Positions 8,549 to 23,206 of a stretch of DNA of 64,000 nt are shown here, piece by piece. The translations under genes were made by a program, and so were the position numbers. Source of the stretch: Blastococcus saxobsidens. GTDB taxonomy: Bacteria > Actinomycetota > Actinomycetes > Mycobacteriales > Geodermatophilaceae. Positions within the stretch are counted from its first letter, which is position 1, and each line of letters opens with the position of its first letter. The notes beneath the pieces are model-generated. The model had not been told where the DNA came from. It was given only the letters and a program-made list of their open reading frames with translations, and searched no databases. The stretch spans positions 1-64,000 of the forward strand of contig NZ_POQT01000016.1 in the NCBI RefSeq assembly GCF_002938435.1. The letters run 5' to 3'.

Positions 8549-9331
8549 ATGGACGCGAGGAACGGCGAGCCCCGCACGGAGCTGCTCGGTGCGGTCGGCT
8601 CTCCCTCCGGACGGGCCGCCGCTCGGCAGGCGCGCCGCGCGGCACCGGTGGCCGCCCGCCGGCGCCCGGCCCTCCTGCTCGCCGCCCTGCTGACCGGCGG
8701 TGTGGCGGCCGCGGGGCTCGGTCTGCCGGGCGCCCCGGCGGCGTCGGCCGACGCGACCTCGGTCGCCGACGCGCAGGCGATGCTGCTCACTGCGGACGAG
8801 GGCGTCGAGATGCTGCCGCAGGCCTCGATCACCGTGGCCGAGGCGGAGGAGCGACTGCGCGAGGTGGCCGCCTCCCGGGCCGAGCGCGACGAGCGCGAGG
8901 CGGCCGCGGCGGCCGCTGCGGCGGAGGCCGCCCGGCCCAAGGCGGTGCTGCCGGTCGCCGGCGCGCGCCTCACGAGCGGCTACGGCGGGCGCTGGGGCAC
9001 CTTCCACTACGGCATCGATCTCGCCGCGCCGATGCGCACCCCGGAGTACGCGGCCATGGACGGCGTCGTCCTCCGGGCCGGCTCGGCCAGCGGGTTCGGC
9101 CTGGCCGTCTACATCCTGCACGAGAACGGGGATGTGACCGTCTACGGCCACATGGACAAGATCCTTGTGAAGCCGGGGCAGTACGTGGAGGCGGGGGAGA
9201 CCATCGCGCTCGTGGGCAACCGCGGTCAGTCGACCGGCCCGCACCTGCACTTCGAGGTGCACCAGGGCGGCCTGGACGGCAAGAGGATCGACCCCATCCC
9301 GTGGCTGGCCGCCCGCGGCGTCCGGATCTGA
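8549..9331 (+). CDS. M23-family peptidoglycan endopeptidase (secreted/anchored)
   Basis: 260 residues. After an Arg-rich start comes a membrane/signal segment (LLLAALLTGGVAAAGLGLPG, about residues 33-52), a short Ala/Glu/Arg helix that is probably coiled coil (about 95-130), then a complete M23 domain with both zinc motifs, HYGID (HxxxD) and HLHFEVH (HxH). Such enzymes cut peptide cross-bridges in the wall. The catalytic domain is closely similar to that of the gene at 57319 (shared LTSGYG/FG...RWGT, GIDLAAPMRTPE, GNRGQSTGPHLHFEVH). ATG 8549 was chosen because both paralogues share CAGGTGCATG at this point; longer upstream starts have no ribosome-binding site. Confidence 0.88.
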   Translation: MDARNGEPRTELLGAVGSPSGRAAARQARRAAPVAARRRPALLLAALLTGGVAAAGLGLPGAPAASADATSVADAQAMLLTADEGVEMLPQASITVAEAEERLREVAASRAERDEREAAAAAAAAEAARPKAVLPVAGARLTSGYGGRWGTFHYGIDLAAPMRTPEYAAMDGVVLRAGSASGFGLAVYILHENGDVTVYGHMDKILVKPGQYVEAGETIALVGNRGQSTGPHLHFEVHQGGLDGKRIDPIPWLAARGVRI

Positions 9332-10769
9332 GGCGGTCGCCGGACGCGGGACGGGGCCGGGCCGGGCACTCCGCCCGGGTGCCGCCACGCCCCGGCCCCC
9401 CTGCGTCGGCCGTGCCGACCGGGCCTGTATTGTTCTCCCCGGCTCGAACGCACCAGATCGAGTCGGCTTCGGGGCTGTGGCGCAGCTGGTAGCGCACCAC
9501 ACTGGCAGTGTGGGGGTCAGGGGTTCGAGTCCCCTCAGCTCCACCCCGATGACCAGGCCGTTCTCCTTCTGGAGGACGGCCTGAGTCGTCTCTGGTTGCA
9601 GTTCTGGTTGCAGTTTGCCCACCCTTACCTGGCAGCAGCAGGGCGCTCATCCGGTCGGCGGCCTCTCTGGCGAGGGCCGGCATCACGTGGCTGTAGATGT
9701 CCATCGTGGTGCGCATCTGGCTGTGGCCGAGCAGCTCCATGACCACCCGCGGGTGGACGTTCTCGCTCAGCAGGAGCGTCGCGGCGGTGTGTCGTCCGTC
9801 GTGCAGCCGCACGTGCCGGACGCCGGCGGTCTGGAGCAGCCGGGTCCAGTCGTCGTAGTCGGTCTTCTTGTCGATCGGCCGGCCGTTGGGCTGGGCGAAG
9901 ACCAGGTCCTCGTCGTGCCACTCGGACCCGGCCAGCATCCGCTCGCCGAGTTGGGCGGCCTTGTGCTCTCTGAGTGCGTCAAGCAGGGGTAGCGGCAGCG
10001 CCAGCGTGCGCTGGCTGCGGCGGGTCTTGGGTTCCTCGTAGATGAGCCCGCCGCCGCGGACCCGGTGGATGCTGCGCCGCACGGTGAGGGTGCCGGCTAG
10101 CGGGTCGATGTCCTTCCACTGCAGCGCCAGGGCCTCGGACTGCCGCAGGCCGAGGGCGAGGGCGACGGTCCAGCGGGCGGAGTTGCGCGCGTGCGCAGCC
10201 GCCTGCAAGACGGCGCGGGCCTCGCCGAGGTCGAGGGCGGTGGCGATGTCGCTCTGCTTCTGTGCGGGTGGGTCGACGAGGCTGGCCACGTTGCGGGGAA
10301 CGTGCCCGCGCTGGACGGCGATGGTGAGCGCCCGGGACAGGATGCGGTGGTGGCGCAGCACGGTGGCGGGGGAGTAGCCGGCATCGAGGAGCGCGGTGTA
10401 GAGCTGGTCGAGGTGCTCGGGGCGCAGCCGGTCGAGGCGGTGCCGTCCGAGTCCGGGGACCAGGTGCTTGCGGACGGCGGACTCGTAACTCTCCAGGGTC
10501 CGCTGGCGCACGCGGCGCGGGGCGATGGTGGTGAGCCAGTGCTCGAGCCACTCGGCGACCGTCGGGGTCGATGTCTCGGTGATCGTTCCGGCGTCCCGCG
10601 AGCGCTCCAGGTCGCGGACCTTGGCGACCACGACGCCGCGGCTCTTGCTGCTGACGTGCCGGCGGTCGGGCTTGCCGGTGAGCGTGAAGCCGACGGAGAC
10701 GTAGCCGTGCCAGCGTCCGTCGGCGCCCTTGTAGATCGTCGACTCGCCGTTCGAGGCGCGTCCCGCCAT
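8970..10769 (-). CDS. Tyrosine integrase (reading frame extended through attL)
   Basis: Phage/ICE-type integrase with an N-terminal arm-binding domain, SAM-like core-binding domain (about 70-150) and catalytic domain. Catalytic residues seen: Arg in ALGLRQSEAL, HDGRHTAA (HxxR), LGHSQMRTT and nucleophile Tyr359 in DIYSHV. ATG at 10769 has AGGGG upstream. The conserved protein ends near residue 385; after that the frame passes through the arm repeats, the att core and the tRNA (antisense), and stops only at 8970, deep within the opposing M23 gene (599 codons). In an excised circle the same frame would cross the core and stop at the position now at 22954, giving about 425 residues. The extra C-terminus is therefore a product of integration. 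Confidence 0.9.
   Translation of the reverse strand: MAGRASNGESTIYKGADGRWHGYVSVGFTLTGKPDRRHVSSKSRGVVVAKVRDLERSRDAGTITETSTPTVAEWLEHWLTTIAPRRVRQRTLESYESAVRKHLVPGLGRHRLDRLRPEHLDQLYTALLDAGYSPATVLRHHRILSRALTIAVQRGHVPRNVASLVDPPAQKQSDIATALDLGEARAVLQAAAHARNSARWTVALALGLRQSEALALQWKDIDPLAGTLTVRRSIHRVRGGGLIYEEPKTRRSQRTLALPLPLLDALREHKAAQLGERMLAGSEWHDEDLVFAQPNGRPIDKKTDYDDWTRLLQTAGVRHVRLHDGRHTAATLLLSENVHPRVVMELLGHSQMRTTMDIYSHVMPALAREAADRMSALLLPGKGGQTATRTATRDDSGRPPEGERPGHRGGAEGTRTPDPHTASVVRYQLRHSPEADSIWCVRAGENNTGPVGTADAGGPGRGGTRAECPARPRPASGDRLRSGRRGRPATGWGRSSCRPGRPGAPRSAGAGRSTDRGCPRARWSPPPPRTAPASQGSCPCGRRRSHPRSRAGCRRPGRTRWPSRPGGRRRPWPRTPGCASARRDRCRSGRCPSARRSRS
9471..9543 (+). tRNA. tRNA-Ala (anticodon GGC)
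   Basis: Folds as a complete cloverleaf: acceptor GGGGCTG with CAGCTCC (one G-T pair), D-stem GCGC/GCGC, anticodon stem CCACA/TGTGG with loop CTGGCAG giving anticodon GGC, and T-arm AGGGG/CCCCT with TTCGAGT loop. Discriminator is A; no CCA is encoded. It is the attachment site of the island to its right: bases from 9502 on are within the 54-bp repeat, so the 3' half present here is supplied by the element. Confidence 0.96.
9502..9555 (+). repeat. attL core (54-bp direct repeat in tRNA-Ala 3' half)
   Basis: 54 bases, starting in the anticodon loop of tRNA-Ala and ending 12 bases past the tRNA, are repeated exactly at 22964-23017. The flanks beyond also resemble each other but with mismatches. 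This is the left junction of an integrated element. Confidence 0.93.
9591..9615 (+). repeat. Arm-type integrase site candidates (left)
   Basis: TCTGGTTGCAGTT occurs twice in tandem with a 12-base period (9591-9603 and 9603-9615). Matching GGTTGCAGTT / TGTTGCAGTT copies with nearly the same spacing lie near the other end at 22838-22860. Same-orientation repeats flanking the core on both sides are the pattern of tyrosine-integrase arm sites. Confidence 0.6.
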
Positions 10770-10842: not shown

Positions 10843-11142
10843 TCACGCCGCATCGGGCGGTGTCGGGCCCAGTTCGAGGAGTCCGCGCTGGTCCGTGGTG
10901 GTCTGGGCTCGGCGCAGCGCACGAGGAGCGGTGCGGGGAGCTTCCAGGCCGCGAACGTAACGTTCGAGCTCCCTGCGGGAGAGGCGACAGCTCCGGCCGA
11001 TGTGGACGGGGTGCAGGTCGCCGGCTTTCATCAGCGCGTAGACCGTCGTGCGCCCGAGGCGGAGCACCGTGGCCGCCTCCTCGGGTGTGAACAACAGCGG
11101 GTCGCCGGAGACCGACTCCCTAGGTTGCTCCGCGTCGCCCAT
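10843..11142 (-). CDS. Excisionase-like MerR/HTH_17 DNA-binding protein
   Basis: 99 residues. Residues 17-68 form the helix-turn-helix typical of HTH_17/AlpA excisionases: FTPEEAATVLRLGRTTVYAL, then a basic wing VHIGRSCRLSRRELERYV. AGGAGG stands 5 bases before the ATG at 11142. It is 73 bases upstream of the integrase on the same strand, the usual xis-int order, so directionality control of the integrase is its likely job. A plain transcriptional regulator is the alternative. Confidence 0.85.
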   Translation of the reverse strand: MGDAEQPRESVSGDPLLFTPEEAATVLRLGRTTVYALMKAGDLHPVHIGRSCRLSRRELERYVRGLEAPRTAPRALRRAQTTTDQRGLLELGPTPPDAA

Positions 11143-11482
11143 CTCGCCCTCCTCGTCGCGTGGCCTCGTGCGCCGGCGTCCGGCGCCGCACGCCCACCTG
11201 GAGAAGGCGCCATTCCCGGCCAGTTGATGACAGTGCCCGGCGAGGTTCCTGTTTTTCTCCAGTCCTGGCTGTCCGACTTCCTGATCACCTCGGGCCGACG
11301 TCCGTCGAGCTGCTCGGTCTCCTGGCCTGCTCCGGCGCGTCTCCGGTTTTCCTCCCGTACGTCGAGCGGTTCGGGCGGTGTCATGCGGTCGCAGCGCAGG
11401 CATCGAGGGTCCCGCTCGACGAGGTCCGCACGGTCCTCGCTGGCGTGCTGGGCGTAGATCGCGGGCGCGGGGCACCGGGCGC
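11143..11482. other. Intergenic stretch in island, no gene seen
   Basis: 340 bases between the HTH gene and the DUF433 relic. Reading frames exist but none has a start signal or recognisable protein. It should contain the leftward promoter of the HTH/integrase pair. Confidence 0.4.
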
Positions 11483-11719
11483 ATGAGTTCCGACCACCTG
11501 GCGTTGATCACTACTGATCGGGCCGTGCTGAGCGGTCAGGCGGTGATCGCTGGCACCCGCGTGCCGGTCAGCGTGGTGCTCTAGTGCCTTACCGCAGGGA
11601 TGAGTGCCGAAGAGATCGTTGCGGAGCTTCCGACTCTGACCTCGGAAGGCGTGCAGGCGGTCGCCGCCTACGGGGCGTTGCTGGCCCGTGAGCAACTGGT
11701 GCCGCGACCGCCTGAGTGA
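11483..11719 (+). pseudogene. DUF433-family antitoxin-like gene interrupted by one amber codon
   Basis: Reads LITTDRAVLSGQAVIAGTRV...SVVL, then TAG, then without frame change CLTAGMSAEEIVAELPTLTS...AYGALLAREQL, which is a full-length DUF433 protein (78 residues) with a single in-frame TAG at 11582-11584. DUF433 proteins are short winged-helix/antitoxin-like proteins usually paired with a PIN-like DUF5615 toxin. No such partner follows; the next 150 bases are degraded. Most likely a dead gene; readthrough is possible but unsupported. Confidence 0.75.
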
Positions 11720-12287: not shown

Positions 12288-12298
12288 TCAGGGGAGGT
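12260..12298 (+). repeat. Two 16-bp direct repeats
   Basis: GGCACTTAGGGGAGGT (12260-12275) and GGCACTCAGGGGAGGT (12283-12298), 15 of 16 identical, 23-base period. The second copy runs into the stop end of the following minus-strand gene. Function unknown. Confidence 0.6.
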
Positions 12299-12776
12299 CA
12301 GGTGCGCCGCTCCAGCGCGCCCGCCGCCGGTAAGACCGCAGCACCGGGTCCAGTGCCCGGCCGAGGGCGGGCATGTCCCGGTCGTAGACGCGGCCGTCAT
12401 CCAGTTGACCGGCGAGCTCGCCGAGCAACCGCGGCCAGTCCCGGCGGGTCGGCTCGAGGGGTACACGAATCTCGACCCGCCGCTCGACCACCTGCACTGC
12501 CGTCCGACCGGAGTTCGCGGCGCGGCTCTGCTCCCAGGCTCGATGCCGGCAGGCGGCCGAGCACCACTTCGGGATGGGGCCGCGGCTGCGCGGGGTGATC
12601 GGTCCGCCGCACCATCCGCAGATCGTCGCGGCGGTGCGTCGTTCAGACCCGTCCGCCGCTGGGGCGCCCCGGTCCGGACGGGGGCGTTCCACCGAGGCGT
12701 GCTGGCGTTGTTGGCGGTGTTGTTGCTCGCGCGCCCGCCGTCGAGCCCGGTACTCGGGGGTGCCGCTGGTTCCCAT
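12288..12776 (-). CDS. Small zinc-ribbon-like protein of actinobacterial mobile elements
   Basis: 162 residues, strongly basic. The middle holds a four-Cys cluster, CGWCGGPITPRSRGP then KWCSAACRHRAWEQ, which looks like a treble-clef/zinc ribbon, followed by AVQVVERRVEIRVPLEP and a helical tail. I recall proteins of this kind as frequent passengers in actinobacterial elements, with no known role. The N-terminus is Arg/Gln-rich and may bind nucleic acid. ATG 12776 is taken as start; an upstream GTG at 12818 is possible. No operon partner. Confidence 0.65.
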   Translation of the reverse strand: MGTSGTPEYRARRRAREQQHRQQRQHASVERPRPDRGAPAADGSERRTAATICGWCGGPITPRSRGPIPKWCSAACRHRAWEQSRAANSGRTAVQVVERRVEIRVPLEPTRRDWPRLLGELAGQLDDGRVYDRDMPALGRALDPVLRSYRRRARWSGAPDLP

Positions 12777-13164
12777 GGCCTGAAGTCTGCTGGCAGTTCT
12801 CCTGTAACCCGTCACCACGAGTCTTCGACCCGGAAGACGTGTGATGCCTTGTGATCTTGGCGTCTCCAGTGTGTGCTCGGCCCCGGGGCGGTTGCTCCCT
12901 GTACGCGGGTGGCAAGCGATCCTTGGTTGGAGGGCCGGCTCAGGCCTCGAGCCTCCTGGCGTCCCGGAAGGCGGCCTGGGCAGACCCCTCGACTCGTCTC
13001 GTCAGCCGCGGCGGCGGGCTGGTCCCGGTTGTGCGTCGAGACGGGAGCGCCTGGCACCATCGAACTTCAAGCGCACGGGTTGCATAGGCGGCCTCTTAGC
13101 AAGGACCTGTCGCCGGGTGGCTCGCCTGGCGACAGTGTGCCCCGTGCTCGGAGAGGCTGAAAAG
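12777..13164. other. Intergenic stretch in island, no gene seen
   Basis: 388 bases between divergent genes at 12776 (minus) and 13165 (plus). It should hold both promoters. A plus frame is open through it but reads as low-quality coding and has no ribosome-binding site before 13150. Confidence 0.4.
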
Positions 13165-13908: not shown

Positions 13909-14529
13909 TCATGTTAGCCGCCGACGCCGCAGACTCCAGGCGAGGCCGAGCAGAAGGAACAGGGCGACGACTGTTGAGGCGGTGCCACCAAGCGATACCC
14001 AAAAGAAGAAGGGAGACCTTCTGTCAAGGTTCCAGAGGACCCACTCACCGACTGCGTTAGCTCCCAAAATCAGCGAGGTGTACATGCCTATAACGGCGAT
14101 ATACCCGAGATCAGCCTTCCCCTTCCACGCTGCCGAGGATTCAAGCAAGGATTCCCAGACGAGAGGCAGGTTCGCGAAGTAATCCCCTTCCGACTTTGGC
14201 CAGCCCCCAAGACTGTCGGCGAAGGCGTTCTCGCGCGCCCGAAGGTACTGTGCAGCGCGGAGCATTCGAGACACCTCGCTCAACCACACAGCAAGGGCGC
14301 AGAGCAAGATGAGAGGGACGGCCGTGCACATGACGAACGCCACGGCGAGTCGGTATTCCTCGGAGTTGTCTCGGGCGCCTGTTATGACCCCGGCGACGAC
14401 AATGCCCGCGACCGCAAGGCTCCATTGCATGATCGTCTGCTGGTTATTTCTTGCCTCCGCCGACTTAGCGCGGATCGCCTTATACTCCTCGACAAGGAGA
14501 CTTCGTCGGATTTCCGGGTCGGCATTCAC
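13909..14529 (-). CDS. Four-helix membrane protein, unknown function
   Basis: 206 residues: a charged N-terminal helix (LLVEEYKAIRAKSAEARNNQ), two membrane helices (SLAVAGIVVAGVITG; VAFVMCTAVPLILLCALAVW), a cytosolic region of about 80 residues, then two more helices near the C-terminus. The N-terminal helix-plus-2TM shape is reminiscent of SLATT-type effector proteins of conflict systems, but I cannot confirm the family. GTG 14529 is the most probable start. It is divergent from the glycosyltransferase at 14672. Moderate GC of the gene marks it as acquired. Confidence 0.6.
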   Translation of the reverse strand: MNADPEIRRSLLVEEYKAIRAKSAEARNNQQTIMQWSLAVAGIVVAGVITGARDNSEEYRLAVAFVMCTAVPLILLCALAVWLSEVSRMLRAAQYLRARENAFADSLGGWPKSEGDYFANLPLVWESLLESSAAWKGKADLGYIAVIGMYTSLILGANAVGEWVLWNLDRRSPFFFWVSLGGTASTVVALFLLLGLAWSLRRRRLT

Positions 14530-14671
14530 CGCCACAGCCTGAGGCGCCACAGCATCGGACTCTCCAGCCCCGGCCAGCAAGAGGGTGATGTCGACATGGA
14601 GTGGCTGCTCAGGCTCCGTCCGTGCAGGTCGCGGCAAGCCCCAGGGCACTTGCGCAGGATACGGTGAATCC

Positions 14672-15481
14672 GTGCCCAACGCCCACGCCAGCAGGGGGAG
14701 GCCCGAGGTGCTCGAGGCGCAAGGCGCTCCCTGTAAGTGCCGTGTCGCAGTCCTGGTTCCCGCCCGCAACGAGGCGGCGACCATCCAGGACGTGGTCAGG
14801 CGCGCAACTCTGGCTTTGCGTGGGATGGGGCTGGGCCCGAAGGATGCCGTCATCTTCGTCATCGCCGACCGTTGCGATGACGGGACACCGGAGCTCGCAG
14901 CAGCCGCCGGTGCAGTCGTGGTTCAAACACCTCCCCGGGAAGCGGGGCTTGGCAACGCATATAGACGTGGCGTCACCGCCGCCTTGGATTGGGGCGCTGA
15001 GTTCATAGTTCATATCGACGGGGACGGGCAATACTGCGCCGACGATATCGGCAGATTGCTTCGGACGGTGCTTGCAGGTCGCGCAGACATCGTCATCGGT
15101 GACCGACTTGGCGATCGCCCGGACTGGATGCCGCCATCTAGGTTCTTTGCCAATAAGGTCGCGTCACGGATAGTGCTAGCGGGGCTGAAGTGCGCCCGAG
15201 TGGACGCACAGTCGGGTTTTCGAGTTTTCACGGCAGACGTGGCGGCAAATTGCCATGTCAGAGGCTCGTATACCTATACCCATGAGCAACTGCTCGCCGC
15301 CGTGGGTAAAGGGTACAGGGTCAAGTCAATACCAGTCAGCTTCCTGGTGCGCTCACATGGACAGAGCCGACTTGCCTCATCGATCCTCAAGTACTCCGTA
15401 CTGACGGCCTCCACGATCGTCAGAGTGAGGCTCGCAAGACTATTCATGGTGTCTCGTCGATTCGTCGACCAGCTGTGCTGA
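14672..15481 (+). CDS. Family 2 glycosyltransferase (dolichol-phosphate mannosyltransferase-like)
   Basis: 269 residues. GT-A fold with VLVPARNEAATIQDVV at the N-terminus, a metal-binding HIDGDGQY (DxD), and VDAQSGFRVF, a block typical of polyprenyl-phosphate glycosyltransferases. No C-terminal membrane helices, so it should be a cytosolic or peripheral enzyme putting a hexose on a lipid or polymer. GTG at 14672 sits exactly 7 bases after a TACGGT -10-like hexamer (14660-14665), which suggests a leaderless transcript and supports the start. The gene is noticeably lower in GC than the chromosome. Role in the island (surface modification, for example phage exclusion) is speculation. Confidence 0.82.
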   Translation: MPNAHASRGRPEVLEAQGAPCKCRVAVLVPARNEAATIQDVVRRATLALRGMGLGPKDAVIFVIADRCDDGTPELAAAAGAVVVQTPPREAGLGNAYRRGVTAALDWGAEFIVHIDGDGQYCADDIGRLLRTVLAGRADIVIGDRLGDRPDWMPPSRFFANKVASRIVLAGLKCARVDAQSGFRVFTADVAANCHVRGSYTYTHEQLLAAVGKGYRVKSIPVSFLVRSHGQSRLASSILKYSVLTASTIVRVRLARLFMVSRRFVDQLC

Positions 15482-15483
15482 CG

Positions 15484-15669
15484 TCAAGCCCAGTCGCCCA
15501 TCCTCCTGCGGCGTCCCCCAACGCGGACCCAGTCGGGCTGAGGGGGTGGTTGCGGGCGGTAGAACATCGCGCCTGCATCGAGGCTAGCGAACGCCCCACG
15601 TCCATAGTGGCCGCTGGGGGTAGTTAAAATCGACTTATTCTCGAGCCGGTAGCGCGTCAGCTTGGCCAT
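15484..15669 (-). CDS. Possible small protein, unknown
   Basis: 61 residues beginning MAKLTRYRLENKSILTT and ending in an Arg-rich tail. The amino-acid composition is more natural than that of random high-GC frames, but there is no ribosome-binding site I trust and no recognised family. It could be the 5' end of a broken gene. Convergent with the glycosyltransferase, 2 bases apart. Confidence 0.3.
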   Translation of the reverse strand: MAKLTRYRLENKSILTTPSGHYGRGAFASLDAGAMFYRPQPPPQPDWVRVGGRRRRMGDWA

Positions 15670-15927
15670 TCGTCACAACGAGTCCCGACACCGTGGATGC
15701 AAGACGTGTGTCCTTCTTGATCTTGCAAGTCTCCGGTGCTTCCGGGCGGGTTCGAGGTCGCTGTCTCGGCAGCCAGCGCGTCGTCGGTTCTCGGATGCGC
15801 GAGCTCGGGGCCGGGCTCGCGCATCCGCCGGAGACCGGCCGCGCCGTGTGCGCACAAGGGATCCGTCGCGGTGGCAAGTCGCTGCCCACCAATCCCGCGT
15901 GGCCTTGGAGCCCAGATGCCAGGAAGG

Positions 15928-16749
15928 TCAGCGCCTCTGCAGAAGGGCAGCGACGCAGGCGATGATCGCCGTGGCGTCCTGGCGGGTATAGCGGAAGTTG
16001 GCGGTGACGGTGTCGTCATGGTGGGCGCCGCTGGCGAGCGAGAACAGCGTCGTACGTAGCGCTGCAAACCTTTGGTCCAGGTCACGTTGCCGGGGGGCGC
16101 CCTGGGGGTCGTACGTAGAGGTTGGGTCGAGTTGGTCGTACAGATCGAGGGCCAGTCGCGCGTCCCGCACCGCGTCCTCGGCGCGCCCGTCGGTCTGCGC
16201 CCGCATCGCCGATTGAAGCCGACGACCGGCCCGCGCACGCAGGCTGTCGGGATCGCCAAGGGGCAGCGGAACCAGCAGCGGCACGCTGACCAAGGCGCCG
16301 AGCCGCTCGGCGTGGACGGCCCAGATCGGACCGGGAACGCGGACCCAGTCCTGGGCGTCTCCGGCCGGGTAGTCCAGCGGTGGCGCATTAGCGAGAGTCA
16401 CGTTGAGATCGACGAGCAGTTCCAGGTCACTTCCCTGGCGCGCCGTTTCGATGCCGGCCAACTGCGCGTCGCTGATCGTGGTGGTCAGGAGTACCGAGCG
16501 CGGATAGGCGGCCGTGCCGCTGATTGGAAGCTGCTGCGCAGCATGCAGCACCCCCACCCAGCTCATCGTGCTCTGCAACCGCAGTGCGCCGGAGATAAAC
16601 GCGACCGATCCAGGCGGCAGCCCGACCGGGGTCGCCTTGTAACGGAGCGCGAGTCGGTGGCCGCCAAAGCCCGCTTCGGCTGCGATCTCGTCAAAGGCAA
16701 GCCGAAGTTCCGCACCCGGGCCTAGATAGATGCTTGTCACGCCGATCAT
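15928..16749 (-). CDS. Hypothetical protein next to the NTPase gene
   Basis: 273 residues, no membrane segment, no family I can name. N-terminal half is beta-rich (about 1-160); the middle WVRVPGPIWAVHAERLGALV and LLVPLPLGD are followed by a helical region (about 185-250, RAGRRLQSAMRAQTDGRAED) with a TPR/HEPN-like look. ATG 16749 has no clear ribosome-binding site. It is divergent from the big NTPase gene (174 bases apart), so the two could share a control region and work together; nothing in the sequence proves it. Confidence 0.7.
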   Translation of the reverse strand: MIGVTSIYLGPGAELRLAFDEIAAEAGFGGHRLALRYKATPVGLPPGSVAFISGALRLQSTMSWVGVLHAAQQLPISGTAAYPRSVLLTTTISDAQLAGIETARQGSDLELLVDLNVTLANAPPLDYPAGDAQDWVRVPGPIWAVHAERLGALVSVPLLVPLPLGDPDSLRARAGRRLQSAMRAQTDGRAEDAVRDARLALDLYDQLDPTSTYDPQGAPRQRDLDQRFAALRTTLFSLASGAHHDDTVTANFRYTRQDATAIIACVAALLQRR

Positions 16750-16910
16750 CGTCCCGAATTCCGAGGCCCCGTGGTGGATGGGTCACGCGGCAGCGAAGTG
16801 GGAGAAAGGACGACGACCGTCGGGCCTGGCTGAACGCCGGCCGTGCGCTCGACCGGCGGCACGGGGTCCGCGGCGGCAGCGGACGGCTACGTGGGCTGGT
16901 CTCTTCGGGT

Positions 16911-16916
16911 TAGCGT
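16911..16916 (+). promoter_or_regulatory. -10 element of leaderless NTPase gene (candidate)
   Basis: TAGCGT whose last base is 7 bases before the GTG at 16923, the geometry of leaderless actinobacterial promoters. No Shine-Dalgarno sequence is present in front of this GTG. No good -35 is visible. Confidence 0.45.
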
Positions 16917-16922
16917 CGGCGT

Positions 16923-19900
16923 GTGGGAAGGGGGTCACAGTCGCGGAAGCTGACGCGGCAGCGGAGGGTGCCCACGGAGCCGCCGCAGGAGCTATGGGTG
17001 TCGCGACGGGCGGGTGCGCGGAACGTCGCCGGGGTCAGGTACCAGTTGCGGTTGACGGCGGCGCTTCTCGTCCGGGCGGCGCAAGGAGTGTTCCCGGCAA
17101 CTGCGCTAACCCCGGAGGGGCTGGAGGACGTCGACACGGTCCCCACGCCGGGCGCCGAGAGGCGGTACGTGCAGGCGAAGGAACAGGCGTCGGCGGACGC
17201 GTTCCTGGGTCTGGGAGACCTGGCCGACTTCCTAGCTCATGTCGCGCCGATGCTCCGGGATGATCCTGACGCCACGGGGTGCCTGGTAACAAACGGCGGG
17301 TTCGGTGGCGGCCTTGCGGCCACGGGGTGGGAGCAGTGCCTGGAGCCGGCGCCGAATGTAGTGGCGAACATCGCCGCGGTAGTGGATGGGGTGGGCGAGG
17401 CCGAGGTGGGGTCGCTGCTGCGTCGAGTTCGCTTGGTCAAGGACGCAGCCGACCTCACGGGAGCGGCGATGGATCTCGCTGATCTTCGCGACATCGATCC
17501 TGCGGTAGCGCAACTTGCGCTCGACCGGTGCCTGATGGTGGCGGCGGACGCGTCCGCAGAGCAAGCCAGCCGGCCAGCGGGGCGGCCGGTAACGCTCGCG
17601 CTGGGCGAGCTGGATGTGGCCGTAGACGCTGCCATGCGGGCAGTCGCGACGGCCGCGGTGCCGATGGACCGGCTGCGTCGTGTCGTCGCACCGTTGACGT
17701 TCCGGGTGGAGTCTGCGCTGCCGGTGGAGGATTTCCTCAGCGGCGTCGACGTACGGCCTGAGCACATCGCGGCCGGGCTCGACGTGGCGCGGCGAGACGA
17801 GTTGGACGCGATCGCGAACGGGCTGGCAAGCGATCGTCTGGCGCTGATCGTGGGACCTAGCGGGACTGGGAAGTCGGCGCTGCTGTGGCGGGCCGCGGCC
17901 GAGCATGCGCAGCGGATGCGTGTCTGGCGAGTGCACGCAATTGCGGAGGCGAACGTGGACATGGTGGTCGCGGCGATCGAGCAGCAGCGTCCCTCAGAGT
18001 CGTATCCGCTCCTGGTCTGTGTGGACGACATCGGCAGGGCCAGCCGTGCGGGGTGGCGTCGGGCCGGGGAGGCGTTGCTCGAGATGTCAGGGGTCTACAT
18101 CGTGGGAGCGGCGCGCGAGGAGGACTTCGCCGTCGCGGACGCGCTGCGGCGAGCGGTGATCGTGCGCCCGACCCTGACGCGGCAGGCCGCAAAGGAAATC
18201 GGGCGGCTCCTGCGGGAGCGCGGGGTCCGTCCGGTGATGGCAGTCGATGAGGCATGGGGCCAGGCGCGCGGTCTGTTGATGGAGTTCCTGCATCTGGTGG
18301 TGGCGGGGCGTCGGCTGTCGACAGTGCTGGCGGAGCAGGCGGCCGGGCTTGAAGATCCTGCGCGGGCGACGGAGCTGGCGGTGGCGCGCTATGTGACGGC
18401 GGCGCATAGCGTCGGCCTGGATGTGGATCCCGGCACGCTCCTGCGGCGGGGCGGCGGCCCGGATCTCGCGGCAGCGCTGAGCCGGCTGAACCGGGAGCAT
18501 CTGATCGTCGAATCAAAAGCCGGCACCTGGTCGGGACTGCACGAGCTGCGGTCGGCGAAGCTGCGCGCACTGCTGCACGAACGCCCCCCGCCGCGCATCG
18601 CGGACACTCTCGCAGCAGTCGTGGAGGACGCTCCGGCTGCAGCTGTCGCGGCCCGACTGCCAGTCATCGTCAGAGAAGCAGGCGACTCTATGACGATCGC
18701 GGACGCCGTGACACGGCGGGTCGCCTCGGCGGGCACGGATTCGGCACAGTGGCTGGAAGCGGCGCGGTTGGCCGATGTGGCCGAGCATGCACGCGCGTGC
18801 GTGCGCGTCGCCCGGACGCTGCCGCTGTCGATGAATCTTGGCCAATGGCTGATGCTCGCAGTTGGAGCGCGGTTCGCTGGGGTTGACCTGTCGGTTCTGC
18901 CCGAGACATTCCACCAGCAGGCGGCCGCACTGCCCGCCCCCGACCCCGCTTTGTTCAGGCGAGCGGCCGCCGCAGTCGACGAGGACGAATGGCTGCGGCG
19001 GATCACTGCGGCCACGCCTGTAGACGGTGCCCGCCTGCTGGAGGCGTTAGAGACCGGCGTGGCCTGGACGACCACCGCCTCGGCGCGCCTCGCGGGCGCG
19101 GCCCCGTCCGGGGACGTACGGGTAGCCGCGCGATGGATCGCTAGCGCGCATCGCGCATGCGCAGACGACGCTGCTCGAGCTGCGCTGCTCACAGCGCTGC
19201 CGCCGCCAGCCGCCCGGCTCGACGCCCTACGGGACGAATGGCCGCTGCTCATCGACGCCGAACTCGACCACGCGAACGGGACCGCGCGGACCAGGTTCAT
19301 CCACCCCATCGACGGGGCCCAGTCGCCGGAGGCGCGCGCCGCCGAGCTCGCGTCGACGGTGCTCGACCTGCTGCCGGAAGCACACGTGGCAGAGGTGACC
19401 GTGGCGCGCTACGACGGCGCCGACCTGCCGATTCTCGGCCGGACCGGGCCACACAAGGCAATACCGCGCGAGAACATGCCGCCGCAGGTCGTGACCCGAT
19501 GGAACCGCGGGTTCAACGACTGGGTGGAGCGCGAGCTCTCCTCCACGTCGCTGACCGCGCGGCTGCGGCAGCAGGCCGCGGCCGTCACGCTGGCCCGCGA
19601 CGTAGTGCTGACAATGGTCGAACGCCTGGTGCGGCCGGGCGACGCCGACCGGAAAAGCTTGAGGCGATGGGAGCAACGTCGTCAGCAGCTGCAGCGCGAC
19701 GCCGCTGCGCTCGGTGCCATGCCGGCGACCGAACCGGTCCTCCTCGCGCCTCTCGGCTCGCCGCCCAGCAAGCGCGGAGACGACGCCGCACAAGCATTGG
19801 ATACGGCGGCCTCGGCTGCGCAGCAGTTCGCAGAAGCCGCCGCGGACCCCGACGCGGCCGCGAGTCGTCAACGGATGCGGCTCGTCGGCTCGCAGTTACG

Positions 19901-20810
19901 AGACGCCGGTGAGCACTTCCGCGCCGCGACCGCTACCGGGGCTGCGCGGCTGGCGGGAGAGCCGGATCCGCTCGACCCGACCCTTACCGCCGTCCTCGGC
20001 GACGCTGCGACCGTTCTGATCGGGTTCGCCGACGGCGCCACGATCGACCCTCCGCCGGAGCGGCTGACGGCGGCCGCCCTTCGGGACGTGGCAGCCGCCA
20101 TTCGCGACCGGCAGCTGCGCGACGAGCGAGAGCTGCTCCGCCAGGCGCTCGCCGAAGTCCCCGGCGCCTCCGTCGACGCCGCTCGCCCCGTCAGGTCCGG
20201 CGCGAAGCCGAGCATGGTCGCGGAGCCCCGCCGGTGGCTGCTGCCGGTTGCGCCGGCGGCTCATGCCGCCGCCGTCGAAGCGCTACTGCGGCTGGTGCGA
20301 GCTGCGCCAAGCGCGCACCCTCTCGCATTCCGCGTCATCGCCGCCCCCGCGGAGGCGGGCGTCCTGTACAGCTACACCGCGACCGTGATCGGAGCCCGCG
20401 ACCCCTTCCCGGTCATCGACATCGACGAGCTGCACGAGCTCGCACAACAAGCCGGGCTGCCCGTGCGACCCGGCCGGTTCGTCGCGGAGACCGCCGAGAT
20501 TATCGGGGCACTCGGGCGCGCATCGCGGGCGGCGGTGGCCGCGGCTCTGCTCTCCGGGACGCGGCAGGAGCCCGAGCTCAGGCAGCAAGCCAGTGATGAG
20601 CTCCAGCGGGCCCAAGGACTGCTCAGAACCATCGACATTCCCGACGTCGCCGACCCGCTGCGACGCATCGCCGACGCCGTGGCGGCCGAGACCACCGACG
20701 TCAGCCCCGGCACCCTTGCGCTCGAGATCGACGACATGCACACGCACGGCACGGTCGGCCCTTGCGTAACGACGCTCGAGGTGGCCGTCCAGGCCGCCGC
20801 CACCGCTTGA
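16923..20810 (+). CDS. Nuclease-STAND-like NTPase, probable anti-phage protein
   Basis: 1295 residues, no membrane helix. N-terminus (about 30-200) resembles the Cap4/DUF4297-type restriction-like nuclease: VRYQLRLTAALLVRA, acidic EGLEDVDT (Glu65, Glu68, Asp69, Asp71) and YVQAK (Gln84, Lys86), an E/D...QxK active-site pattern. Then a P-loop NTPase: Walker A GPSGTGKS (311-318, Lys317) and Walker B LLVCVDDIG (Asp368/Asp369), with winged-helix-like region to about 560. The last 700 residues are alpha-helical and unrecognised, as expected for a sensor array. This nuclease-NTPase-sensor order is that of Avs/STAND defence proteins, which detect a phage protein, oligomerise and degrade DNA. Homology is judged by eye; Avs subtype cannot be assigned and it may be a new branch. 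Confidence 0.72.
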   Translation: MGRGSQSRKLTRQRRVPTEPPQELWVSRRAGARNVAGVRYQLRLTAALLVRAAQGVFPATALTPEGLEDVDTVPTPGAERRYVQAKEQASADAFLGLGDLADFLAHVAPMLRDDPDATGCLVTNGGFGGGLAATGWEQCLEPAPNVVANIAAVVDGVGEAEVGSLLRRVRLVKDAADLTGAAMDLADLRDIDPAVAQLALDRCLMVAADASAEQASRPAGRPVTLALGELDVAVDAAMRAVATAAVPMDRLRRVVAPLTFRVESALPVEDFLSGVDVRPEHIAAGLDVARRDELDAIANGLASDRLALIVGPSGTGKSALLWRAAAEHAQRMRVWRVHAIAEANVDMVVAAIEQQRPSESYPLLVCVDDIGRASRAGWRRAGEALLEMSGVYIVGAAREEDFAVADALRRAVIVRPTLTRQAAKEIGRLLRERGVRPVMAVDEAWGQARGLLMEFLHLVVAGRRLSTVLAEQAAGLEDPARATELAVARYVTAAHSVGLDVDPGTLLRRGGGPDLAAALSRLNREHLIVESKAGTWSGLHELRSAKLRALLHERPPPRIADTLAAVVEDAPAAAVAARLPVIVREAGDSMTIADAVTRRVASAGTDSAQWLEAARLADVAEHARACVRVARTLPLSMNLGQWLMLAVGARFAGVDLSVLPETFHQQAAALPAPDPALFRRAAAAVDEDEWLRRITAATPVDGARLLEALETGVAWTTTASARLAGAAPSGDVRVAARWIASAHRACADDAARAALLTALPPPAARLDALRDEWPLLIDAELDHANGTARTRFIHPIDGAQSPEARAAELASTVLDLLPEAHVAEVTVARYDGADLPILGRTGPHKAIPRENMPPQVVTRWNRGFNDWVERELSSTSLTARLRQQAAAVTLARDVVLTMVERLVRPGDADRKSLRRWEQRRQQLQRDAAALGAMPATEPVLLAPLGSPPSKRGDDAAQALDTAASAAQQFAEAAADPDAAASRQRMRLVGSQLRDAGEHFRAATATGAARLAGEPDPLDPTLTAVLGDAATVLIGFADGATIDPPPERLTAAALRDVAAAIRDRQLRDERELLRQALAEVPGASVDAARPVRSGAKPSMVAEPRRWLLPVAPAAHAAAVEALLRLVRAAPSAHPLAFRVIAAPAEAGVLYSYTATVIGARDPFPVIDIDELHELAQQAGLPVRPGRFVAETAEIIGALGRASRAAVAAALLSGTRQEPELRQQASDELQRAQGLLRTIDIPDVADPLRRIADAVAAETTDVSPGTLALEIDDMHTHGTVGPCVTTLEVAVQAAATA

Positions 20811-20966
20811 TCCGACCAAGCTGTCGGCCGAGAGGCCGTCGAAGCATGGCGCGCAGGTCTGGACATCCAAGCGACTAAAGCTATGCCGCAACCTGGCCGT
20901 ATAGACGACTGGACCACCGGACGGCACGTGTCCGGGCCCGCCATGCAGTGAAAGCGGCCGGGCCGA

Positions 20967-21713
20967 CTACTTCAGAGTCGTGTCAAGGGACCAGGAGAAG
21001 GCTAGCTCGCCAGGCGCGGTGGGTCGTCGCCCGACGGTTTCACTGAACTGGATGTCCTCGCTGGCTACTTCGGGCGGCATCAAGGCCGCAACCAGCGCGA
21101 GGGCCCCACCAGGGGGCCAGGTGATGTTGGGAGGCATGGTTATGCCGACCCAACCTTCTTCGAGGGAGCCGTCGGTCTCGAAGACGAGATCGACCGTGAT
21201 CGTTGCCGTGCCGACTGCGTCGTGCGCCGCGACGAAATCCTGCCGAATCTCCTGCCCGTTGACTGCGCGGGCCTTCTGAAGGAGCTCGGGTGCCATGCGC
21301 CGGAGGGATCTGATCAGCTCCTCCGGCGTGATCGTCTGGAGCTTCTCGTAGTCGTCGGCGGTCGGAGTGAGTAGTCCGTCGTCCTGGAGGCCGGCGAAGT
21401 AGTTGTAGACATCCTTGCGATCCCCGTCGGCGTGGTATTCGCCGTATGCCACGAGCCAACAGGTATCGAAGTCGGGGTCCCACAGGGTCGCGCCGCGCGG
21501 GCGGCCAACGTGAAGGCTGCGGAAGGCGCCGCGCGGTCTGAGCGCCTGGATCGGTTCGCCGCCGTCGGGGGCCTGAGCACGACGATCAACGAAAGCGCGG
21601 ACCACCATATGGCGGTCCGCGAAGTCGCGAGCGTCCCGGTCTGCATACAGCTCCGGCAGGCTTAGATCATCTTGCAGGCAGCGCAGAGTGACCCTGAGAT
21701 GCGGGGAGGGCAC
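20967..21713 (-). CDS. Hypothetical island protein
   Basis: 248 residues, soluble, not recognised. Mixed alpha/beta composition; Trp-containing WDPDFDTCWLVAYGEYHADG in the middle and a Pro-rich IRIP-like segment ITMPPNITWPPGG late. GTG 21713 starts 5 bases after the stop of the 66-residue gene upstream, so it is probably translated by coupling from it; no separate ribosome-binding site has room. Convergent with the NTPase gene. Could be an accessory or an independent cargo gene. Confidence 0.65.
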   Translation of the reverse strand: MPSPHLRVTLRCLQDDLSLPELYADRDARDFADRHMVVRAFVDRRAQAPDGGEPIQALRPRGAFRSLHVGRPRGATLWDPDFDTCWLVAYGEYHADGDRKDVYNYFAGLQDDGLLTPTADDYEKLQTITPEELIRSLRRMAPELLQKARAVNGQEIRQDFVAAHDAVGTATITVDLVFETDGSLEEGWVGITMPPNITWPPGGALALVAALMPPEVASEDIQFSETVGRRPTAPGELAFSWSLDTTLK

Positions 21714-21718
21714 TCCTG

Positions 21719-21919
21719 TCAGACGGCGAAGCGAGCGGCAGCTCGCTCAGCGCGCTGACGGCGTTCGCGCTTCTGACGTTCGACGATCTGGGCGGGGGAG
21801 GAGTTGCGAGCTTCCTCGATGCGAGCTGCAAGCTCGGCAGGCGACATCTGGCGGACCTCATCGACGAGTCGGGCGGCAGGAGCGCCATGGTCTGGCTGGA
21901 TGCGCTGGAGCGTTGCCAT
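21719..21919 (-). CDS. Small charged helical protein
   Basis: 66 residues, predicted almost wholly helical and highly charged: MSPAELAARIEEARNSSPAQ then a basic KRERRQRAERAAARF tail. AGGAAGG lies 6 bases before ATG 21919, a strong signal. First gene of a two-gene unit with the 248-residue protein. The size and charge pattern would fit an antitoxin-like or DNA-binding partner, but I do not recognise it. Confidence 0.6.
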   Translation of the reverse strand: MATLQRIQPDHGAPAARLVDEVRQMSPAELAARIEEARNSSPAQIVERQKRERRQRAERAAARFAV

Positions 21920-22079
21920 GCTGTTCCTTCCTGTCGTCGCCCTTTGCGGGGGCGGCGAGGACCCCACGCTCCTTTACAACGGCGCGTGGGTCAAGTTCTT
22001 CCTAGCGTAGACGGCAACCTCACCCTAAGGGGGGACGCGGCTCCAGGCAGATCGGAAGCTCGGATGCGAGGGATAGTGC

Positions 22080-22963: not shown

Positions 22964-23017
22964 CTGGCAGTGTGGGGGTCAGGGGTTCGAGTCCCCTCAG
23001 CTCCACCCCGATGACCA
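22964..23017 (+). repeat. attR core (54-bp direct repeat, 3' fragment of tRNA-Ala)
   Basis: Exact copy of 9502-9555. It carries the last 42 bases of tRNA-Ala without the 5' half and is the original chromosomal 3' end displaced by insertion of the island. Confidence 0.93.
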
Positions 23018-23206
23018 TGCCGTTCTCCTTCCGGGGAGCGGCCTGAGTCGTCTCTGGTGCCAGCGTGGTTGCCACCTGCGCCAGCAGGGTGCCCCTGTCC
23101 GTCGTGCTGCGCATCTGTGCGTGGGCGAGCACCCCCATGACGACTCCCGGGTGCGTCCAGCCGGGCAACAGCAGAGGCGCATGAGTGTGCCGGCCCCTCG
23201 CGGCGT
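23018..23206 (-). pseudogene. Decayed C-terminus of a second, related tyrosine integrase
   Basis: On the minus strand this DNA reads RGRHTHAPLLLPGWTHPGVV and MGVLAHAQMRST, which align with DGRHTAATLLLSENVHPRVV and MELLGHSQMRTT of the island integrase; nearer the core, in another frame, it reads TRDDSGRSPEGERHGHRGGA, matching TRDDSGRPPEGERPGHRGGA. The catalytic Tyr segment is missing, there is at least one frameshift, and nothing of the N-terminal 300 residues remains. It lies outside the attR core, so it belongs to an older element at the same tRNA. Confidence 0.78.

Follow-up and report, generated by a model that had tools for sequence, protein, structure and literature searches.

Within a 64,000-nucleotide stretch of the Blastococcus saxobsidens genome (contig NZ_POQT01000016.1, positions 1 to 64,000; hereafter the window), a gene on an integrative island encodes a 1295-residue protein that is likely, by analogy with named defense families, to be a single-protein anti-phage switch of the abortive-infection type. 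The protein runs from an N-terminal nuclease through a central signal transduction ATPase with numerous domains (STAND) module to a long C-terminal region. Because this effector-switch-sensor layout is that of the Avs and bNACHT proteins, a nuclease-based anti-phage sensor is its most likely role. The support drawn from sequence covers the domain make-up, the invariant residues, selection on the gene, its attachment-site (att) and integrase context, and defense genes at the same site. An earlier reading of this DNA, called here the original prediction, had described an Avs/STAND protein. The layout it proposed stands, with the sensor role still putative, whereas membership in Avs is not borne out by profile comparison.

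The gene occupies 16923..20810 on the forward strand, with a GTG start and the stop codon included. In 200 mononucleotide shuffles of positions 16001-22000, no stop-free run exceeded 544 codons. Goekera deserti, which we take to belong to the Geodermatophilaceae, carries a full-length ortholog that is 88% identical and has an identical start. Between the two genes, the ratio of nonsynonymous to synonymous substitution rates (dN/dS) is 0.22 overall, with values of 0.135 for residues 25-260, 0.22 for residues 261-560 and 0.25 for residues 561-1295. Given an open frame beyond anything in the shuffles, a full-length ortholog and this dN/dS, the open reading frame (ORF) is real, intact and maintained by purifying selection, which confirms the 1295-residue protein first proposed at these positions.

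More distant relatives came from plasmids. Among 72,556 plasmid records searched, 11 gave a match to the window protein, and eight distinct ones were used; three Agrobacterium records were left out because their match values equal those of a fourth. The eight come from Caulobacter, Sphingopyxis, Ruegeria, Agrobacterium and Marinovum (Alphaproteobacteria, five), Arthrobacter (Actinomycetota), Hymenobacter (Bacteroidota) and Deinococcus (Deinococcota), four phyla in all, so the protein is not the specifically actinobacterial member that had been envisaged. Together with the window protein and its Goekera ortholog they make up a 10-member alignment, in which identity to the window protein is 88% for Goekera and 19-29% for the plasmid relatives.

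By its conserved residues, the N terminus is predicted to be a PD-(D/E)xK nuclease of the Cap4/LmuA/AbpA type (17010..17552, forward strand, about residues 30-210). The outer limits of this domain are an estimate; the profile matches reach no further than its initial portion of about 60-75 residues. E65, D69, Q84 and K86, encoded at 17115-17180, are identical in all ten aligned proteins, and the D71 column is not invariant. Glu65, Gln84 and Lys86 of the nuclease motif in the original prediction are therefore retained, and the invariant aspartate is Asp69 in place of Asp71. Among the relatives, PF14130 passes its cut-off in the Sphingopyxis protein and falls short of it in those of Ruegeria, Marinovum and Hymenobacter; it is not listed for the others. 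One LmuA model in PADLOC matches six of the ten members (best E 1e-10), and HamA models match two. When the 10-member profile was compared with solved structures, AbpA (8zue, E = 1.2e-4) and LmuA (9ux7, E = 2.9e-4) aligned within the first 80 profile positions; the top match was a phosphate-loop protein (6c2u, 2.5e-7), an unspecific match at Walker A. In AbpA, changing Gln58 or Lys60, the equivalents of Q84 and K86, abolishes defense against T4, according to an extract of PMC10732053. Through its relatives and the family profile, the restriction-like nuclease recognized earlier is thus supported as a member of the Cap4/LmuA family.

The central domain is, by profile and motif, a predicted STAND NTPase. 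An nSTAND_NTPase5 domain (17730..18143, forward strand, residues 270-407) is defined by PF25199 and by conserved columns. Against a cut-off of 34, PF25199 gives 38.7 bits in the window protein and 36.3 in the Goekera ortholog. It exceeds the cut-off in 10 of 60 related genomes and in none of 14 control genomes; weak matches occur in all 14 controls and throughout the 60 related genomes, as is typical of P-loops. Walker A (GPSGTGKS, residues 311-318, 17853-17876) contributes S313, G314, G316 and K317 to the residues invariant in all ten proteins, Walker B (18012-18029) contributes D368, and R398 (18114-18116) is likewise invariant. D369, which the original prediction had paired with D368, is present in the window protein and not invariant; its Walker A, Asp368 and STAND class all hold. 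The profiles place neither the N terminus outside PD-(D/E)xK nor the P-loop in a non-STAND class. Beyond the NTPase, at about residues 471-560 (18333..18602, forward strand), lies a region with a GLHxxRS motif (18534-18554) in which G538, L539, H540, R543, S544 and L547 are invariant in all ten members. This region is a candidate for the STAND winged-helix/MHD-like element. The P-loop also gives a weak match to mad8 of the MADS system (0.0014), and a helix-turn-helix (HTH) protein of the island, the HTH_17 protein described below, gives one to mad1 (1.3e-4); both probably reflect merely shared HTH and P-loop motifs.

The rest of the protein, residues 561-1295 (18603..20807, forward strand), is the putative sensor. 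These approximately 735 residues, which the original prediction had put at about 700 and rightly called unrecognized, match no model in the Pfam, PADLOC or NCBIfam lists at E up to 10, and a sequence search of the Protein Data Bank returned merely two chance-level rows (E 4.5-5). This is also the least conserved part of the protein among the plasmid relatives: identity to the window protein is 13-23% here, compared with 25-39% over residues 261-470 and 18-29% in the nuclease part, the C-terminal range omitting one comparison over 10 residues and the empty stretches of the truncated Sphingopyxis protein. P818, N861 and P1045 are fixed in nine of nine rows (again excluding that protein), and one of them falls within a conserved patch at approximately residues 847-862, IPREN..P...WNR. 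A divergent C terminus that keeps a few fixed positions is consistent with a sensor, a role suggested by position and divergence.

These parts suggest how such a protein may work. At rest, the C-terminal region of approximately 735 residues and a nucleotide-bound STAND module would keep it inactive. On sensing a phage-made or phage-induced ligand through the C terminus, the STAND NTPase would exchange nucleotide and the protein would oligomerize. The oligomer would then pair the N-terminal Cap4-type nucleases, whose cleavage of both phage and host DNA would end the infection. For nuclease activity, oligomerization, ligand sensing, action as a single protein and the anti-phage outcome alike, the models are the families named here.

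We regard the protein as a predicted member of an unnamed nuclease-STAND family, apparently a little-described relative of known defense proteins and not a new kind of system. The Avs1-Avs4 (AVAST) proteins resemble it in combining an N-terminal nuclease, a central STAND P-loop and a long C-terminal region (extract of PMC12931631), and one congener (G411) has an Avs3a match at the att site used by the window island, on an island of the same integrase family. The match is a 2159-residue protein at L060:1641-8120 that the Avs3a model of PADLOC detects at 1387.9 bits, with NACHT just above the Pfam cut-off. It serves as a control for the Avs3a model; the models of other Avs types had no such control. 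None of the ten members matches an Avs model in PADLOC at E ≤ 0.01. When the 10-member profile was aligned by hhalign with the congener Avs3a, only 26 P-loop columns aligned (probability 17%, E 0.0015), and BLASTP of the window protein against it gave nothing significant (best E 0.84). The two also differ in size, 2159 residues compared with 1295. With no Avs model matched in the ten members and an alignment to Avs3a confined to the P-loop, membership in Avs was rejected.

The bNACHT proteins of clade 6 (bNACHT25 and bNACHT32) likewise unite a PD-(D/E)xK nuclease, a STAND-class NTPase and a C-terminal region in a single protein, as an extract of PMC12169576 describes them. They differ in the NTPase, which here is nSTAND_NTPase5; because NACHT (PF05729) is absent from the Pfam list of the window protein to E 10, identity as a bNACHT was rejected. 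With Cap4, LmuA and AbpA (PF14130) the protein shares its nuclease family and the pattern E-x-x-x-D...Q-x-K. LmuA works with an SMC partner in Lamassu. No SMC protein is named among the annotated neighbors of the plasmid relatives, many of which are labeled hypothetical and on which no profile search was made. We rejected a Lamassu identity, the nuclease being common to both and the partner not sought by profile. In HerA-DUF4297, a two-component system, a DUF4297 nuclease is reportedly coupled to an ATPase in phage defense; it consists of two proteins with a HerA ATPase, where the window has a single STAND NTPase protein, and is set apart by description only. Cap4 is joined to SAVED and AbpA to a helicase partner (extract of PMC10732053), whereas the window nuclease shares one polypeptide with a STAND NTPase. 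PF25199, matched above cut-off by the window and Goekera proteins, is a domain family, and no title or abstract opening in the literature searched ties it to a tested defense system. Nor does any such opening describe this nuclease-STAND family, most subscription journals lying outside the coverage of that search. No NCBIfam model (June 2026) matches any of the ten members at E ≤ 0.001, and whether NCBIfam holds Avs models was not checked.

The gene is carried on an integrase island with a tRNA target, att repeats and a tyrosine integrase. The integration target is a tRNA-Ala (GGC) gene detected by ARAGORN at 9471..9545 (forward strand). The left att copy (9502..9611, forward strand) begins in the 3' part of the tRNA and extends beyond it as a 110-bp direct repeat; the right copy (22964..23072, forward strand) is 90.9% identical to it over 110 bases. 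Between them lies an island of 13.5 kb with a GC content of 0.685, compared with 0.735-0.743 outside. The integrase ORF (8970..10769, reverse strand; PF00589 1.7e-23, PF14659 2.5e-9), of which 9546-10769 was compared with other islands, runs antisense through the tRNA-Ala gene and the att site. Because the ORF passes through the att site, integration or excision could alter the C terminus of the integrase. The site is the same in Goekera, where this tRNA, the repeats, the integrase and the STAND gene all recur. A search of congener flanks demonstrated no empty att site; the comparison is confused by an integrase C-terminal remnant (23008-23195, reverse strand; 50% and 68% identity in two short pieces) that overlaps and follows the right att copy. 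This remnant hints at an earlier element at the site.

The same att site carries other cargo in relatives. On the contig bearing the tRNA, at least 10 of 22 congeners have a second att copy 9.5-26.8 kb from the tRNA copy, some of these copies being only 43-80 bases. The integrase recurs in these ten intervals: in eight at 90% identity or more over at least 403 residues, in one as a 63% relative and in one as fragments only. Two further backbone proteins recur with it. Relatives of the HTH_17 protein adjoining the integrase (10843..11511, reverse strand; PF12728 3.6e-13; excisionase-like by position) are found in nine of ten intervals. So are relatives of a 176-residue accessory protein (12288..12818, reverse strand; no Pfam match), one of them only 26 residues long; this protein is also present in Goekera, and it may have a role in island mobility or control. 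The nuclease-STAND gene occurs in none of the ten intervals. A composition rule picked 75 ORFs in them, and 10 of these, from seven intervals and selected by eye on their first residues, were scanned; the rule overlooks real genes, picking neither the SIR2 nor the STAND gene in the Goekera island. Four of the 10, in four intervals, match PADLOC models (Avs3a, ThsB, DarT and PDC-S19, the last a candidate defense protein), which is not a rate because the ORFs were chosen by hand. The scan therefore establishes that defense genes occur at the site and gives no frequency. The mobile island of the original prediction is supported, and its site holds defense genes in related strains.

Several of these loci deserve description in their own right. 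The Thoeris ThsB TIR protein (L057:1346-1813) adjoins an Nmad2 protein (746-1342). The interval with the DarT ADP-ribosyltransferase (L059:10978-11601) also holds a 1280-residue protein at L059:5020-8862 with no Pfam or PADLOC match; considered as a relative of the window protein, it showed no relation (hhalign 0.5%). In Goekera, a SIR2_2 protein matching a ThsA model at 1e-32 (L002:12252-13892) is encoded on the strand of the nuclease-STAND ortholog, approximately 370 bases downstream of it.

The family is rare in the genomes sampled from the phylum and class of the window, and it is present on plasmids of four phyla. The phylum sample gave a match at E ≤ 0.001 in 5 of 396 genomes; the only full-length match was in the window's own genome, and the remaining genomes cover just 68-291 residues of the query. 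By profile search of the class sample, 53 of 394 genomes match; among the matches listed, full length is reached only in the window's own genome, one other lies within the nuclease and all remaining ones map to the P-loop region. Two of 60 related genomes match, namely the own genome and one with the match statistics of the Goekera locus. Goekera alone was found in a scan of genome contigs, where the single-protein query used exact peptide patterns and reaches close relatives only. No partner gene recurs beside the eight plasmid relatives in their annotated neighborhoods, the plasmid gene tables being incomplete.

A number of observations weigh against an anti-phage nuclease-STAND switch. The window protein taken by itself matches neither PF14130 (Pfam list to E 10) nor an LmuA model of PADLOC, so its place among the nucleases rests on its relatives. 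PF25199 scores only 15-30 bits, below its cut-off, in the other eight relatives, and in Caulobacter, Ruegeria and Marinovum a different P-loop model outscores it. PADLOC, NCBIfam and the solved structures hold no match to the nuclease-STAND protein as a whole. Compared with Goekera, the C terminus is not less conserved than the rest (89% compared with 87-89% elsewhere), and an AlphaFold2 model of residues 18-619 built from two sequences, those of the window and Goekera, is too poor for use (mean predicted local distance difference test score 38.8, predicted template modeling score 0.24). In Marinovum, a same-strand hypothetical gene of approximately 1458 codons shares 14 bases with the end of the relative (L044:5163-13344) and is a possible partner there. 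At the congener site, 6 of the 10 scanned ORFs lack a PADLOC match, Pfam giving two transposases, a thymidylate-synthase-like protein, Nmad2 and DUF4062 among them, and in the intervals of G398 and G416 the first residues of the ORFs look like those of mostly ordinary genes. Finally, the phage records and viral contigs searched contain no relatives.

The main doubt concerns the trigger: the protein could resemble Avs in responding to a phage protein, or AbpAB in responding to a host-state signal. Sensing of exposed single-stranded DNA, single-stranded-DNA-binding protein (SSB) or DNA damage, with no phage protein directly bound, is a real though minority possibility; as a variant of the anti-phage switch that differs in its trigger only, it shares part of the same probability. 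The nuclease is nearest by profile to AbpA, LmuA and HamA, and extracts of two reports name phage SSB or replication damage as what activates AbpAB (PMC10732053) and describe bNACHT25 as needing host DnaJ, with no direct binding of its trigger (PMC12169576). AbpA, however, works with a separate helicase (extract of PMC10732053), and a 735-residue C terminus after a STAND module is the layout in which Avs proteins recognize phage proteins directly (extract of PMC12931631).

The same nuclease switch could instead target plasmids or rival mobile elements, or serve to keep the island or a plasmid in the cell. The gene sits on an integrative island, and its eight relatives from the plasmid collection are on plasmids, as they must be, with three of the eight typed as conjugative and one as mobilizable. 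We consider this unlikely, though, given that the site holds matches to Avs3a, ThsB and DarT, which are phage-defense types, in congeners, and that no antitoxin-like partner recurs in the annotated neighborhoods of the plasmid relatives. Less probable again is a modification-dependent or self/non-self restriction enzyme with an AAA+ motor, resembling McrBC and working without a sensor switch. A nuclease joined to a P-loop NTPase would suit it, as would the AAA_16, AAA_22 and mad8 P-loop matches (all below cut-off or weak) and an MmeI-type restriction gene near one relative. Yet nSTAND_NTPase5 is the sole NTPase model above cut-off, no McrB-named model appears in the Pfam or NCBIfam lists, and beyond the MmeI-type gene no methylase is named in the annotated neighborhoods or in the Pfam lists of the scanned island genes of the window. 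That the gene is decayed or cryptic and has no function is very improbable. Its GC content at third codon positions is 0.81, below the 0.92 and 0.96 of two genes that lie beyond the island, a consensus scan covering sigma-70 types only found no promoter-like site, and the Sphingopyxis relative is short and beside an insertion sequence; against this stand the full-length frame, the intact invariant residues and the dN/dS of 0.22 relative to Goekera.

If the protein acts as an anti-phage nuclease-STAND switch, a broad, unlabeled family would join the bacterial counterparts of nucleotide-binding leucine-rich-repeat (NLR) immune receptors, one that NCBIfam (June 2026) does not match and that PADLOC (2023) recognizes only in part, through the nuclease. 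A more specific proposal, which we put forward tentatively and at somewhat less than even odds, is that this is a separate nuclease-STAND sensor family, found in four or more phyla and possessing a distinct NTPase class. Its C terminus would be specific for a conserved phage protein that is not among the known Avs ligands, and it would move through a tRNA-Ala island in which Avs3, Thoeris, DarT and this protein are interchangeable cassettes. The site is compact: at one tRNA-Ala in the Geodermatophilaceae, unrelated defense genes stand on a common integrase backbone. It should be useful for finding further defense genes and for comparing the new STAND protein with Avs3a at the same locus.

The other genes of the island, at 13909-16749 and 20967-21713, comprise one for a glycosyltransferase family 2 protein and three for which no Pfam model exceeds its cut-off; PADLOC matches at E ≤ 0.01 are absent from all four. 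Among the plasmid relatives, the Sphingopyxis protein (L011:5299-8827) is 632 residues long and ends approximately 100 bases before an IS21 transposase gene. In the relatives from Caulobacter (L009, upstream of 5968), Marinovum (L044, upstream of 5163) and Arthrobacter (L010, upstream of 5362), the annotated starts exclude the conserved nuclease motif G....G...Q, which is open in frame upstream of each annotated start.

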